Shown: positions 43,239 to 47,072 of the stretch, in pieces
Layout: the number at the start of each line of letters is the position of its first letter
Position numbering within the stretch: the stretch's first letter is position 1
DNA from: Blastococcus sp. TF02A-30
GTDB lineage: Bacteria; Actinomycetota; Actinomycetes; Mycobacteriales; Geodermatophilaceae
Reading direction: 5' to 3'
Assembly: GCF_003319185.1 (NCBI RefSeq)
Contig: NZ_QOHJ01000006.1
Coordinates: forward strand, 124,001-188,000
Length of the DNA: 64,000 bases
The notes under the pieces: model-generated
Seen by the model: only the letters and a program-made list of their open reading frames with translations
Databases searched by the model: none
What the model was told of the DNA's origin: nothing
Program-made: the position numbers and the translations under genes

Positions 43239-44404
43239 CGCTCCTGGCGGACCTGGCCGTCCCCGCCTACGGGACGGCGACCCTCGCCGACGTCCTCCCC
43301 GGCGTGGCGGCCGCGCTCGGCGTGACCCCCGCGCGGGGCGACCTCCCCGCCGACCCGCTCGGCCTCACCGCGACCCTCGCCGGCGCCCGGCGCGTGGCGG
43401 TGCTGCTCGTCGACGGCCTGGGGGCGGATCTGGTCCGCGCGCACGCCGACCTGGCGCCCACCCTCGCCGCGCTGAGCGCCCCCGTCGGCGACCTCGCCGC
43501 GCCCTGCCCCAGCACCACCCCGGTCAGCCTGGCCACGCTCGGCACCGGCCTGCCGCCGGGCAGCCACGGCATCCTCGGCTTCGTCACCGACGTCCCGGGC
43601 GAGGACCGCACCCTCACCCACACGCAGTGGCAGGACGACCCCGACCCCGCCGTCTGGCAGCAGTGCCCGACCGTCTTCGAGCAGGCCGCCGCCGCGGGGC
43701 TCCCGGTCACCGTCGTCGCGCCGTGGTCGTTCGCCGGGTCCGGGCTCAGCGTCTCGGCCTACCGCGGCGCCACGTACACCGGCACCGTGGGCGCCGGTGA
43801 CCTCAGCGCCCAGGTGCTGCGGGCGCTGCGGGCCGCCCCCCGCGGGCTGGTCTACGGCTACTTCGCCGACCTCGACCTCACCGGCCACGTCCGCGGCGTC
43901 GGCTCCGACAGCTGGCGCGCCCAGCTGCAGCTGGTCGACCGGATGGTCGCGCAGGTCGTCGACGGGCTCCCGGACGACGCCGCGCTGCTGGTCACCGCGG
44001 ACCACGGGATGCTCGACGTCCCCGCCGGCACGAGGCTGGACCTGGACGCCCACCCCGACCTGGCGGAGGGGGTGCGCGTGCTGGCCGGCGAGCCGCGCGC
44101 CCGCTACGTGCACGCGCTCCCCGGCGCGGCCGACGACGTGCTGGCCCGCTGGCAGGAGGTGCTGGCCGAGCGCGCCTGGGTGGTCGCCCGCGACGAGGCG
44201 GTGGCCAGCGGCATCTTCGGCCCGGTGGACGACGCCGTGGTCGAGCGGATCGGCGACGTCGTGGCCCTGGCCCGCGGCACCTGGGCGCTGACCGCCACCG
44301 ACCGCGAGCCCGGGCCGAGCCGGCTCGCCGCCTACCACGGCTCGCTCACCGCGACAGAGCTGGCGATCCCGCTGCTGCTCGCCCGGGGCCGCGCCCTCAG
44401 CTGA
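43235..44404 (+). CDS. Alkaline-phosphatase-superfamily phosphodiesterase/nucleotide pyrophosphatase
   Basis: A 389-residue metal enzyme of the NPP type I phosphodiesterase group. The expected residues are visible: VLLVDGLGADL (first Asp), the Thr nucleophile in CPSTTPVSLATLGTG, the second metal site in FADLDLTGH, TADHGMLDV (Asp-His) and YHGSLTATEL (final His). No signal peptide or lipobox is seen, so it is likely cytosolic. It hydrolyses phosphodiester or pyrophosphate bonds in an unknown substrate. It is GTGA-coupled to the methyltransferase and ends 8 bp inside the convergent sucrase/ferredoxin-like gene. Confidence 0.85.
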   Translation: MTLLADLAVPAYGTATLADVLPGVAAALGVTPARGDLPADPLGLTATLAGARRVAVLLVDGLGADLVRAHADLAPTLAALSAPVGDLAAPCPSTTPVSLATLGTGLPPGSHGILGFVTDVPGEDRTLTHTQWQDDPDPAVWQQCPTVFEQAAAAGLPVTVVAPWSFAGSGLSVSAYRGATYTGTVGAGDLSAQVLRALRAAPRGLVYGYFADLDLTGHVRGVGSDSWRAQLQLVDRMVAQVVDGLPDDAALLVTADHGMLDVPAGTRLDLDAHPDLAEGVRVLAGEPRARYVHALPGAADDVLARWQEVLAERAWVVARDEAVASGIFGPVDDAVVERIGDVVALARGTWALTATDREPGPSRLAAYHGSLTATELAIPLLLARGRALS

Positions 44405-45350
44405 CCGACAGGCGGTGCCAGGTGCGGACCCGGCCCGGCCGGGCCGCCGAGCAGGTGAGGTGCACCAGCTCCGGCGAGGGGCGGCTCTCCACGACGACCA
44501 CCACCGGGCCGTCCGGGCCGGCCAGCGCGACCTCCCACCGCTCCACCTCGGGCTCCGGCGGGTCGAGCCGCGTCACCGACAGCGGCGCGAGGTCGTCCAC
44601 GCCGAGCAGCCCCAGCTCCTCCCGCGCACCGTGCTGCGCCGCCTGCACCGGCGCGGGCAGCCCCGCCCGGCCGCGCAGCCACGGCAGCGCCACCCGGCCG
44701 CGCTCGTGCGCCTCCACCAGCAGCCCGCCGTCGCCCGGCACCTGCCCGTAGTAGAAGCCGTGCGGCAGCACCAGCACGTTGGCCGCGAACCGGTCGCCGC
44801 CCAGGTGGCTGCACTCCCAGACGTCGGCCGGCCCGGGCGCCGGCAGCGCGCGGGCCAGCGGCCGGCCGCGCAGCGCGCAGCACGCATCGTGCCCGCCGTG
44901 CGTGCAGACCAGGTACGCCGGGCGGGCGGCCGGCTCGCCCACCGAGCCGTCCCAGGGTGCGGTCAGCAGGTCCGCGTCCTCCGCCCGCACCGACCACCAC
45001 ATGCCCTCCCGCCCGGGACGGCTGTCCGCGTACGCCCAGCGGCGACCGGAGTCGGCCAGCCGGTCCCCGGGACGGCGCACGAGCAGCACCCGCACGCCCT
45101 CCTGCCGGGCCCGCTCGGCGAGCAGCGGCGCGACGTGCGCGTCGAACCGCGACTGGGTCAGGGCGTCGCGACCCCAGGGGCCGGGCTGCTCCACCAGCAG
45201 CCAGCGCTGCACGGGGGAGGCGGTGGCGATCGAGGAGTCGCCGCGCTCCATCGCCTGCACCGAGCACCGCGACGCGTCCAGCCGCCCCGCCGGCCGCGCC
45301 GGGACGTCGGTGCGGCAGAAGTCGTCCGGGGGTCGCGCGCCGGCGGTCAC
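44397..45350 (-). CDS. Sucrase/ferredoxin-like protein (thioredoxin-fold 2Fe-2S)
   Basis: A 317-residue protein of the sucrase/ferredoxin-like family. The Cys-rich core reads VCTHGGHDACCALRG (Cys149, Cys157, Cys158) and WECSHLGGDRFAAN (Cys180, His182); these resemble the ligands of thioredoxin-like [2Fe-2S] ferredoxins. An additional Cys lies in DASRCSVQAM near the N-terminus. The family has no established reaction in bacteria. It is the third gene of the operon with the cupin oxygenase (GTGA overlap) and the DGGA-repeat polypeptide. An electron-transfer role to the iron oxygenase is a reasonable guess, not shown by sequence. It ends over the 3' end of the phosphodiesterase gene. Confidence 0.85.
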   Translation of the reverse strand: MTAGARPPDDFCRTDVPARPAGRLDASRCSVQAMERGDSSIATASPVQRWLLVEQPGPWGRDALTQSRFDAHVAPLLAERARQEGVRVLLVRRPGDRLADSGRRWAYADSRPGREGMWWSVRAEDADLLTAPWDGSVGEPAARPAYLVCTHGGHDACCALRGRPLARALPAPGPADVWECSHLGGDRFAANVLVLPHGFYYGQVPGDGGLLVEAHERGRVALPWLRGRAGLPAPVQAAQHGAREELGLLGVDDLAPLSVTRLDPPEPEVERWEVALAGPDGPVVVVVESRPSPELVHLTCSAARPGRVRTWHRLSVS

Positions 45351-46597
45351 GGTCCCGCGGTCGCGTCCGGGACCACCGCGATCGACTCGGTGACCAGCCG
45401 GCGGGCCAGGGCGATCCCCTCGGCGGGGTCGAGGCCGGGCAGATCGCCCACCTTGAGCTCGCCGACCGCCAGCAGCTCGGCCAGCGCCGGCCGCGCCGAC
45501 GCCGGGAACGTGTGCGTGCGGCGGCCGCCGACCAGCACGACCTCACCCTCGTCGCCGTCGCCCAGCCGGCAGCGGAGCCGGCGGCGCAGCCGCAGCACGG
45601 TGTCGGGGGAGAGGGACGCCGCGGCGGTCGCCTGCGCCAGCGGCGCCACCGGCTCGGGGCGCACCTGCGACCAGGTGCGGGCGCGCAGCCGCTCGGCCAC
45701 CTCGTCGGGGTCGACCCGGGCCAGCCAGTCGCGCAGCCCCTCGACCACGGCGACGACGTCGTCGCGCACGCTCCCGGGATCGGCCAGGTCCACGCCCAGC
45801 GGCAGCGAGCCGCGCAGCGCGCCGTCCTCGGCGGCCAGGGTGCGCACCAGGTCCAGCGCCGCCTCCGCCGCGCCCCAGCGGGTCACCGAGTGGATGCCGA
45901 TGGTCAGGTGCGCGCTGATCTCGCCCAGCGCCGTCGCCGAGTGCAGGAAGCCGCGGGGGAGGTAGAGGACGTCGCCCGGCTCGAGGACGGCGTCGACCAC
46001 CGGCTCGCGGGTGGCCGCCTCGGCCACCTCCGCACGGCGGTCGGTCCACACCTGGCTGCGCAGCGGGTCGCGCAGCACCGGCTCGTGGATGGTCCAGTGC
46101 TTCTGCCCGGCGACCTGGAGGACGAAGACGTCGTGCACGTCGTAGTGCGGGTCGAACCCGCGCGAGGACGGCGGGGTGACGTAGGCGTTGACCTGGGTGG
46201 GGTGGCCGAGGTCGGCGGCCAGCTGGTCGGCGAACTCGATCAGCGGCGGCCACAGCCGGTGCAGGCCCTGCAGGACCACGGTGCTGCCGTCGGCGAACAG
46301 CCGCAGGACCGAGTCGGTGCTCACCTGGTCGGCGATCTCCGCGCCGGCGCCAGCCGGGCCGGTGAACCGCGTGGCGTCGACGACCTGGCCGTCCTTGGCG
46401 ATGCGCAGGAAGGGGGTGCGCAGCCCGCGACGGGACAGCAGCTCGTCGACCGCCGCGAGGTCGAGCAGGTCGGTGAAGTCGCTCCCGGTGTCGGCGGCGC
46501 GGGTCAGCAGGGGGCGGCGGCCCCAGTACTCCTCCGCGAAGACGGCGGGGTCGACGTGCGTGCACCGCCGCAAGGCCGGGCGGAGCGGCTGCTCCAC
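45347..46597 (-). CDS. JmjC/cupin-type Fe(II) oxygenase (ribosomal-oxygenase-like)
   Basis: A 416-residue cupin of the JmjC/RoxA (YcfD, MINA53) group, which hydroxylate His, Arg or Asp/Asn side chains of proteins using Fe(II), oxygen and 2-oxoglutarate. The HxD...H triad is seen as His151-Tyr-Asp153 in FDPHYDVHD and His219 in LPRGFLHSA; GQKHWTIHEP supplies the following strand, and a helical dimerisation/winged-helix part follows (about 270-416). The start EEYWGRRPLL is a typical RoxA-family entry. The gene begins 26 bases after the stop of the DGGA-repeat gene and overlaps the sucrase/ferredoxin-like gene. I infer that the repeat polypeptide is its substrate; a ribosomal protein is the alternative. 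Confidence 0.87.
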   Translation of the reverse strand: MEQPLRPALRRCTHVDPAVFAEEYWGRRPLLTRAADTGSDFTDLLDLAAVDELLSRRGLRTPFLRIAKDGQVVDATRFTGPAGAGAEIADQVSTDSVLRLFADGSTVVLQGLHRLWPPLIEFADQLAADLGHPTQVNAYVTPPSSRGFDPHYDVHDVFVLQVAGQKHWTIHEPVLRDPLRSQVWTDRRAEVAEAATREPVVDAVLEPGDVLYLPRGFLHSATALGEISAHLTIGIHSVTRWGAAEAALDLVRTLAAEDGALRGSLPLGVDLADPGSVRDDVVAVVEGLRDWLARVDPDEVAERLRARTWSQVRPEPVAPLAQATAAASLSPDTVLRLRRRLRCRLGDGDEGEVVLVGGRRTHTFPASARPALAELLAVGELKVGDLPGLDPAEGIALARRLVTESIAVVPDATAGP

Positions 46598-46623
46598 CCG
46601 GCCCCCCGGGGTGGTGTCCTCGC

Positions 46624-46902
46624 TCAGGCCGAACCGTCCGCGCCGCCGTCGGCGCCGCCGTCCGCGCCGCCGTCGGCACCGCCGTCCGCGCCACCGTCCG
46701 CGCCACCGTCCGCGCCACCGTCCGCGCCGCCATCGGCGCCGCCATCGGCCCCGCCGTCCGCACCGCCGTCGTGGCCGCCGGGGGTACCGGAGGCGCCGTG
46801 GTCCGCGGTGCCCGCGCCACCGTCGGCCGGGCCGTGCGCCCCGCCGTCCGCGCCGCCGTCGGCCCCGCCGTCGCCGCTGGTCATCTCGTCGTCCAGAGCC
46901 AT
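46624..46902 (-). CDS. Small DGGA-repeat polypeptide
   Basis: A 92-residue low-complexity protein: a short leader MALDDEMTSGDGG, an irregular Gly/Ala/His middle, then 11 units of Asp-Gly-Gly-Ala and a final Asp-Gly-Ser-Ala. A GGAGGAG ribosome site three bases before the ATG and the operon position argue that it is translated. The many Asp residues spaced every four positions would suit a hydroxylase that modifies Asp side chains, and the leader-plus-core shape is reminiscent of a ribosomally made, modified peptide, though no protease or transporter gene is adjacent. I do not recognise a named family. The unit DNA is a 12-bp minisatellite, so copy number may vary between strains. Confidence 0.72.
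   Translation of the reverse strand: MALDDEMTSGDGGADGGADGGAHGPADGGAGTADHGASGTPGGHDGGADGGADGGADGGADGGADGGADGGADGGADGGADGGADGGADGSA
46627..46770 (-). repeat. 12-bp coding minisatellite (DGGA repeats)
   Basis: Twelve tandem 12-bp units, each encoding Asp-Gly-Gly-Ala on the minus strand (the last is Asp-Gly-Ser-Ala). Third positions vary (GTC/ATC, CGC/GGC, GCC/ACC on the plus strand) while the peptide stays constant, which suggests selection on protein. Confidence 0.85.
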
Positions 46903-47072
46903 GGGCTCCTCCGCTCGTCTCGGGATCCGGGCCGCCGGTCGGCGGCTCCCCGGCCGCTGCTTACCTCCCGCATCCTGGCCCGACACATGCCGTCCCACCA
47001 GCGGGGATCCGGCGCGGGTCACGAGTGGGGCACGGCGCGGTGGCGCGGTGCGCCGGTCGCGGCCGTGCGGGC

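Follow-up and report, generated by a model that had tools for sequence, protein, structure and literature searches.

An Asp-rich repeat peptide, a JmjC-type oxygenase and usually a ferredoxin-like protein form a conserved actinobacterial module: a probable dedicated substrate with its modifying enzyme

Within a 64,000-nucleotide stretch of the Blastococcus sp. TF02A-30 genome (contig NZ_QOHJ01000006.1, positions 124,001 to 188,000; hereafter the window), genes for a small repeat polypeptide, a JmjC-type oxygenase and a sucrase/ferredoxin-like protein follow one another on the reverse strand. As judged by sequence comparison, the peptide, the oxygenase and usually the ferredoxin-like gene are a conserved actinobacterial module. 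We suggest, with a probability of about two in three, that the peptide is a dedicated substrate, the oxygenase its modifying enzyme and the ferredoxin-like protein, where present, an iron–sulfur (Fe–S) redox partner, in a system resembling those that make ribosomally synthesized and post-translationally modified peptides (RiPPs), with Asp residues hydroxylated at many sites.

The peptide gene (46624..46902, minus strand, as are all three genes) encodes 92 aa beginning MALDDEMTSGDGG, a presumed precursor or substrate in which a leader-like N terminus, MALDDEMTS (46876..46902, minus strand; motif D..[IM]x[TSV] within the first 22 aa), precedes an Asp-, Gly- and Ala-rich core that terminates in an array of 11 DGGA units and one DGSA (46627..46770, minus strand; codon table and tandem-repeat scan), with four further DGGA units elsewhere in the peptide. 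A ribosome-binding site, GGAGGAG (46906..46912, minus strand), stands directly 5′ of the peptide ATG. The gene for a 416 aa JmjC_2/cupin 2-oxoglutarate (2OG)/Fe(II) oxygenase (45347..46597) follows after a gap of 26 bp and shares a GTGA overlap with the gene for a 317 aa sucrase/ferredoxin-like (PF06999) protein (44397..45350). An earlier, sequence-only reading had given this same layout (the array, the 26 bp gap, a JmjC-type HxD...H enzyme, the GTGA overlap and a Suc_Fer-like gene, behind a good ribosome site), and it is borne out here throughout.

That reading had also proposed a survey of actinobacteria for co-occurrence of repeat open reading frame (ORF) and cupin, and had held that an absent or broken repeat ORF beside the cupin would speak against it. 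In the survey, each of the 62 evaluable named loci (out of 67, the other five being cut by contig ends) has an open DGGA-type repeat ORF as the immediate upstream neighbour of the oxygenase gene; these loci belong nearly all to Geodermatophilaceae (Blastococcus, Geodermatophilus, Modestobacter, Goekera and Trujillonella), plus Actinoplanes and Mangrovihabitans. Among order and class loci whose oxygenase scores at least 360 bits (n=102, two cut short), a repeat ORF occupies this position at 98 of the 100 evaluable (L128, among the 98, and the named L023 are a single record), and an Asp-rich peptide is found at 6/6 loci of 300–360 bits and at 7/9 evaluable loci of 190–300 bits. In other classes of the phylum, other Asp-rich repeats lie upstream at 17 of 18 unique evaluable loci (18/19 before removal of L274, which duplicates L241); L268, the exception, misses the Asp rule, yet its peptide is still a repeat one, with 13% Asp. 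Moreover, among 20 further, weaker loci, 14/14 evaluable loci of at least 196 bits, eight of them in other classes (8/9 evaluable there), encode a repeat peptide that is rich in Asp and whose start is LxDD[DE][IM]-like; one locus of at least 196 bits is without upstream DNA, and five at or below 144 bits are without such a peptide. As a control, 2619 positions were drawn at random in regions L157–L256, each 1.3 kb or more away from the oxygenase; none passed the tetrad or Asp test, the latter also requiring net acidity there and being slightly stricter than at the loci. The oxygenase itself (protein or profile match) occurs in 108/112 genomes of the family and 94/96 of the good ones, in 169/298 order genomes and 88/394 class genomes (E≤1e-40), and in 42/296 genomes of a phylum sample (E≤1e-20), these samples overlapping.

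The peptide reading frame is probably selected as protein, because third codon positions vary whereas first and second positions hardly do. Within the 12 units of the array, positions 1 and 2 differ only in the Ser codon of DGSA and third positions vary, and over the last eight codons of the 62 named loci the mean minor-allele frequency is 0.016, 0.028 and 0.105 at positions 1, 2 and 3, respectively. The three rows that cover the DGGA array are the top scorers among the 21 rows of a tandem-repeat scan of the window, and DGGA copy number ranges from 5 to 18 per peptide over the named loci. That the array is an untranslated DNA or RNA repeat in which the open frame is incidental would fit the tendency of GC-rich repeats to keep frames open, and other frames over the array also hold long ORFs; considering, however, that the codon-position bias appears both in the array and across the 62 loci, that ribosome-binding site, start and non-repetitive leader recur, and that Asp richness is retained by different repeat types, we regard this as hardly credible.

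Two types of core can be distinguished. Type I consists of DGGA or GPADGGA...(H/S)DGGADG(S/G)A, with an Asp spacing of mostly 4 (1418 of 2180 spacings up to 13); type II consists of TDGDATDG, DADAADAD, DADGTDSGD and similar strings, with a spacing of 2–3 (457/563). Core type follows the enzyme tree: over 154 oxygenases it changes 3 times, where shuffling gives 29.1 changes on average and none of 500 shuffles as few, in a quick tree that has several long branches and in which close rows inflate the clustering. At the other end of the peptide, the strict leader-like motif occurs in the first 22 aa of 145/195 peptides and a looser version in 167/195 (138 + 29; counted with no control and from script-chosen starts); since start codons were picked by ribosome-binding-site score and acidity, these counts carry error and a bias towards acidic starts, and the start is wrong for L023/L128.

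The better-known JmjC hydroxylases target His, Arg, Lys or Asn. In the 195 cores (residue 19 onward) Lys is present in 29, Arg in 51, Asn in 44, His in 143, Pro in 159 and Cys in none, and because each of the four familiar residues is missing from many cores, His, Arg, Lys and Asn are ruled out as the common target. Asp occurs in 195/195 cores and never falls below 13%, and it is followed by Gly in 2203 of the 3138 Asp residues of all chosen peptides, duplicates included. We consider Asp the likely common target on this compositional ground, and β-hydroxylation of Asp at many sites would be the simplest common reaction. His or Arg as a universal target, by analogy with NO66, MINA and YcfD, was considered and rejected (52/195 cores without His, 144/195 without Arg).

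The oxygenase matches Pfam JmjC_2 (PF08007) at E 8e-29 and 100.2 bits (cut-off 22), and its HxD...H triad (H151xD153...H219), K166, which we take to be the 2OG-binding Lys, and W168 are invariant in 154/154 aligned rows. Among solved structures, those of the protein hydroxylases NO66 and MINA come closest to it, and a profile alignment to NO66 covers positions 11–402, including the C-terminal region (the winged-helix region of ribosomal oxygenases). The 117 aa C-terminal piece of the window enzyme has no Pfam match at E≤3, the corresponding piece of the divergent L256 enzyme gives a weak HTH_IclR match below cut-off, and peptide, oxygenase and ferredoxin-like protein of the window have no NCBIfam match above a cut-off. 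Given these relatives, and that this is the only PF08007 protein detected in the window's genome, the enzyme could be an ordinary ribosomal-protein oxygenase of the NO66/MINA/YcfD kind with the acidic peptide as its regulator, chaperone-like partner or inhibitor. A regulator, however, need be neither a long array of varying copy number (DGGA 5–18) nor one that switches to other Asp-rich repeats along enzyme clades, and we judge this explanation quite improbable.

The third protein matches Pfam Suc_Fer-like (PF06999) at E 5e-17 and 63 bits (cut-off 34.9) and carries CX8C (C149–C158) and H182-X3-D186. By profile search, a PF06999 gene lies 3′ of the oxygenase on the same strand at 63/65 named, 97/125 order/class and 15/18 other-class evaluable loci, within 150 bp at 61/63, 96/97 and 15/15 of these, with median gaps of 47, -10 and -26 bp, respectively; of the 20 further loci, 15 have such a gene, that is, all those of at least 196 bits. 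CxH..D.CC or CX8C is present in 177/179 module PF06999 proteins, and the fourth-ligand position is occupied by Asp (148 proteins), Cys (24), Glu (2) or His (1), four proteins being unmatched, so that the bis-histidine pattern HX3H is absent from the window protein (H-X3-D) and found in only 1/179. The family also occurs without the oxygenase, 165/298 order genomes having a member (E≤1e-10; genome sets not identical). The idea that the ferredoxin gene is merely a local neighbour in Geodermatophilaceae was discarded when the profile search overturned tblastn misses in L065 and L067.

What we observe is conserved gene linkage, conservation of the catalytic and the Cys/His residues, the composition of the peptides and the agreement between core type and enzyme clade. 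From these we infer binding, hydroxylation and its site, cluster binding and electron transfer, and propose that the small repeat polypeptide would serve as the dedicated substrate of the adjacent JmjC_2 oxygenase; that a short acidic leader (LxDDD[IM]xT-like) may be recognized by the oxygenase, perhaps via its C-terminal domain; and that the flexible core would offer an Asp, mostly as Asp-Gly, every 2–4 residues. The oxygenase would then β-hydroxylate core Asp residues at many sites with Fe(II), O2 and 2OG, and the thioredoxin-like PF06999 ferredoxin might donate electrons, either keeping the oxygenase iron as Fe(II) or reducing Fe(III) held by the product.

Several results weigh against this proposal. 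The universality of Asp arises partly by construction, given that peptides entered by Asp-containing tetrads or by at least 20% Asp, and selection of the most acidic upstream frame as the peptide adds to that bias; Gly is as universal as Asp in the cores and Ala is present in 194/195, although Gly has no side-chain carbon for hydroxylation. The strict leader pattern fails in 50/195 peptides, including a clade starting MSx(n)EGPADGGA. At L226 and L227 (same genus, 413 bits) the oxygenase is preceded by a non-repetitive acidic peptide ending GPT(V/I)EPGA (L227 passes the Asp rule and is nevertheless not counted as a repeat locus), and the PF06999 gene is not adjacent, one being present elsewhere in both genomes. 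Enzymes below about 190 bits mostly stand with other short peptides or none: 3/9 such loci pass the Asp rule, the case of L248 looking spurious, and three have nothing evident upstream. A Nostoc plasmid keeps the order small ORF, JmjC_2, sucrase ferredoxin, which speaks for the proposal, but its small ORF has no Asp repeat. Finally, in f16, a family that falls together with the named Micromonosporaceae, a PF06999 gene is adjacent at 0/6 loci and present in 0/7 whole genomes; four f43 loci likewise have none adjacent (all four genomes carry one elsewhere), and f31 and most divergent enzymes have none downstream. The unit of substrate, oxygenase and redox partner that the sequence-only reading had put forward is thus supported in part: the gene linkage stands (peptide at 62/62, ferredoxin-like gene at 63/65, 97/125 and 15/18 loci), the core composition fits Asp hydroxylation at many sites, and the ferredoxin is not obligatory (f16, 0/7).

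The divergent loci also delimit the Asp core. No clear Asp peptide was found at the plasmid loci of Pseudanabaena (L284), Dolichospermum (L295, from an annotation table only) or Streptomyces cadmiisoli (L287), and the small ORF of S. albidoflavus has no Asp repeats; because these and the Nostoc plasmid lack them, an Asp core is not universal for PF08007. At S. cadmiisoli (plasmid; L287 841-3541) a YcaO-like gene is followed directly by JmjC_2. A possible further precursor type is seen at L286 (2190-2336), L324 and L326, where JmjC_2 stands behind small ORFs ending ...(S)DGGGTGRSDGND or ...GGRSDGND; those of L324 and L326 end ...RSDGND, like the S. albidoflavus ORF. At L240 the enzyme follows a different precursor-like ORF, of 45 aa and Cys-containing, that ends ...SDDCWIVCNPNYCY. 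On two Streptomyces plasmids, the annotation lists the small ORFs next to related cupins as hypothetical.

As for what a hydroxylated peptide might do, a function inside the cell seems likelier to us than a secreted natural product: in one family the module has a fixed place in the core genome, and no export genes are conserved with it. In that family dinB lies divergently upstream at 57/59 loci and a phosphodiesterase-like gene convergently downstream at 59/62 loci with enough DNA, the counted set (L002–L068) including two Micromonosporaceae that have neither neighbour. ORFs of at least 90 aa within 4 kb in 100 regions (L157–L256; module-overlapping ORFs left out) were clustered, and the clusters were ranked by the number of families they span. 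The highest-ranked reach no more than 7 loci and 5 of 24 families, and clusters restricted to one or two families can hold more loci. Hence none of the surrounding genes, whether for a protease, a transporter or a regulator, is conserved from family to family. A RiPP natural product, in which the hydroxylated core is excised and exported as a small bioactive peptide, would agree with the leader and variable core beside a modifying enzyme and with published mention of bacterial PF08007 JmjC homologues in ‘RiPP-like genomic contexts’ (available text of PMC12710340). It would also agree with the prolyl oligopeptidase and 4′-phosphopantetheinyl transferase genes at the f31 loci L249 and L256 and the ATP-binding cassette (ABC) transporter genes at L249, and with a Streptomyces clavuligerus plasmid that brings together an Asp-rich 48 aa peptide, JmjC_2 and, in convergent orientation, a gene for an S9 peptidase. 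In the module itself a precursor does stand beside a modifying enzyme, but no conserved protease or transporter was found within 4 kb in the 100 regions, and near-universal presence at a fixed family locus is unlike an accessory cluster; we therefore think such a product unlikely.

The loci just named deserve description in their own right. Five f31 loci below 190 bits encode a precursor-like peptide of 35–38 aa (MDPMEFEVEVEDL...DGTDGSSDFI type), and two of them pass the Asp rule; at L249, L250, L253, L254, L256 and L316 JmjC_2 lies behind a 35–38 aa peptide of the pattern ...VEVEDL.EVTSRD.TAGG..DGTD.SSDFI. With the additional genes at L249 and L256, the f31-type loci look like a separate RiPP cluster type. 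The plasmid locus of S. clavuligerus (L283 2811-4206), whose 48 aa peptide is Asp/Pro-rich, is a candidate JmjC RiPP locus.

An extension of the preferred reading, of dedicated substrate and oxygenase, is that poly-β-hydroxyaspartate would chelate or store Fe(III) inside the cell, with the PF06999 protein as its ferric reductase. β-Hydroxyaspartate coordinates Fe(III) in the siderophore gramibactin, according to the available part of PMC9679993. Furthermore, 28 plasmid records carry a relative of the Nostoc plasmid ferredoxin, and of the 13 inspected (hand-chosen; 11 annotated), 8 of the 11 annotated loci show a gene for a siderophore/iron ABC transporter or for a TonB-dependent receptor no more than 2.5 kb away, the TonB receptor of L304 not being stated as siderophore-specific; the remaining three are the Nostoc module itself, L303 with MbtH genes and L306 from Tsukamurella. 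A near-universal module at a fixed place in the family (94/96 good genomes; dinB 57/59; phosphodiesterase-like gene 59/62) likewise suits housekeeping over an accessory metabolite. Against this extension, the eight iron-linked relatives are just 26–31% identical to the Nostoc query and their role may not transfer, the conserved neighbours include no transporter or ferritin gene, f16 genomes hold the peptide–oxygenase pair without a ferredoxin, and no strict DtxR/IdeR-type box was found in 62 + 145 = 207 upstream regions (these include duplicates and some regions behind script-chosen starts), which speaks against iron control through such a box. The DtxR/IdeR consensus sought is the generally known one. 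On balance we offer the iron-chelator extension as tentative. The broader form, in which a phylum-wide housekeeping poly-β-hydroxyaspartate would act as a multidentate chelator of Fe(III) or other metals and a dedicated [2Fe-2S] reductase would free the metal, we put forward still more guardedly. In the eight iron-linked records (L296–L299, L301, L302, L304 and L305; Cyanobacteria and Deinococcus), Suc_Fer-like genes lie beside iron-siderophore uptake or TonB-receptor genes, and by this gene context their PF06999 proteins are candidate ferric-siderophore reductases.

Upstream of the peptide gene two further elements were seen. A palindrome of the type GGGCCGCCG nn CGGCGGCCC lies about 45–25 bp before the peptide start in the window (GCCGCCG-AC-CGGCGGC, 46931..46946, no strand assigned) and in the L002–L068 upstream regions; a perfect-arm score of at least 7 is reached in 41/62 family upstreams, window included, against 28/310 mononucleotide shuffles. 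It seems to have changed in a compensatory way from genus to genus, and an operator or a hairpin in the 5′ untranslated region are candidate roles for it. In addition, a TGTG...GAGGTA.GCAG stretch is conserved between positions of roughly -80 and -60 relative to the start of the peptide (L001–L068), one pattern of it occurring in 26/62 and the two patterns in 3/145 and 0/145 other upstreams; it is perhaps a promoter in the family.

The sequence-only reading knew of no described pathway of this kind, and our literature search, outside which most subscription journals lie, agrees with it: the repeat strings sought occurred in no paper searched, and none of the best-ranked papers on related subjects describes the module. 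Asp is, to our knowledge, not a described target of this JmjC subfamily. If the proposal holds, a JmjC oxygenase clade would gain encoded substrates with many repeated sites, Asp would join the targets of the subfamily, the poorly understood sucrase/ferredoxin-like proteins would be assigned a partner and a possible role, and a common actinobacterial unit missed by annotation would be revealed. JmjC peptide hydroxylases as such are known already in RiPP pathways, from BipG. Should the iron-chelator extension also hold, the product would in effect buffer iron like a siderophore while being genetically encoded, and as Fe(II), O2 and 2OG are required to make it, it could also sense them; that would be categorically new.

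NO66, MINA and YcfD act on ribosomal proteins. With NO66/RIOX1, MINA53/RIOX2 and YcfD/RoxA the module oxygenase has in common the PF08007 domain with HxD...H and Lys and, for NO66, a sequence alignable through the C-terminal region; the module differs in that a repeat-peptide gene immediately precedes the oxygenase gene and a ferredoxin-like gene usually follows it. As far as the available descriptions go, the JmjC enzyme BipG of the biphenomycin RiPP cluster is a peptide γ-ornithine hydroxylase (PMC12707348) and BpmG a predicted JmjC peptide hydroxylase (PMC12257519), so that in both, as in our module, a JmjC protein is paired with a genetically encoded peptide. BipG offers a precedent for our proposal. 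It differs from the module oxygenase in modifying a single position within an Arg/Orn core, and its cluster is larger, also encoding other oxidases and a transporter; these descriptions, which are our basis of comparison, mention neither Asp repeats nor a PF06999 gene. A survey of RiPP recognition elements (RREs), in its accessible text, reports RRE-like folds fused to PF08007 and bacterial homologues in RiPP-like contexts, and names there no Asp-repeat peptide, ferredoxin partner or function for these proteins (PMC12710340). For the third gene the nearest comparison is with the PF06999 proteins Apd1 and Aim32, the [2Fe-2S] motif of Aim32 being given in the available text as CX8CXnHX3H (PMC8482512): the module proteins resemble them in CX8C and a downstream H-X3-x pair, and differ in having CX8C...HX3[D/C] rather than HX3H.

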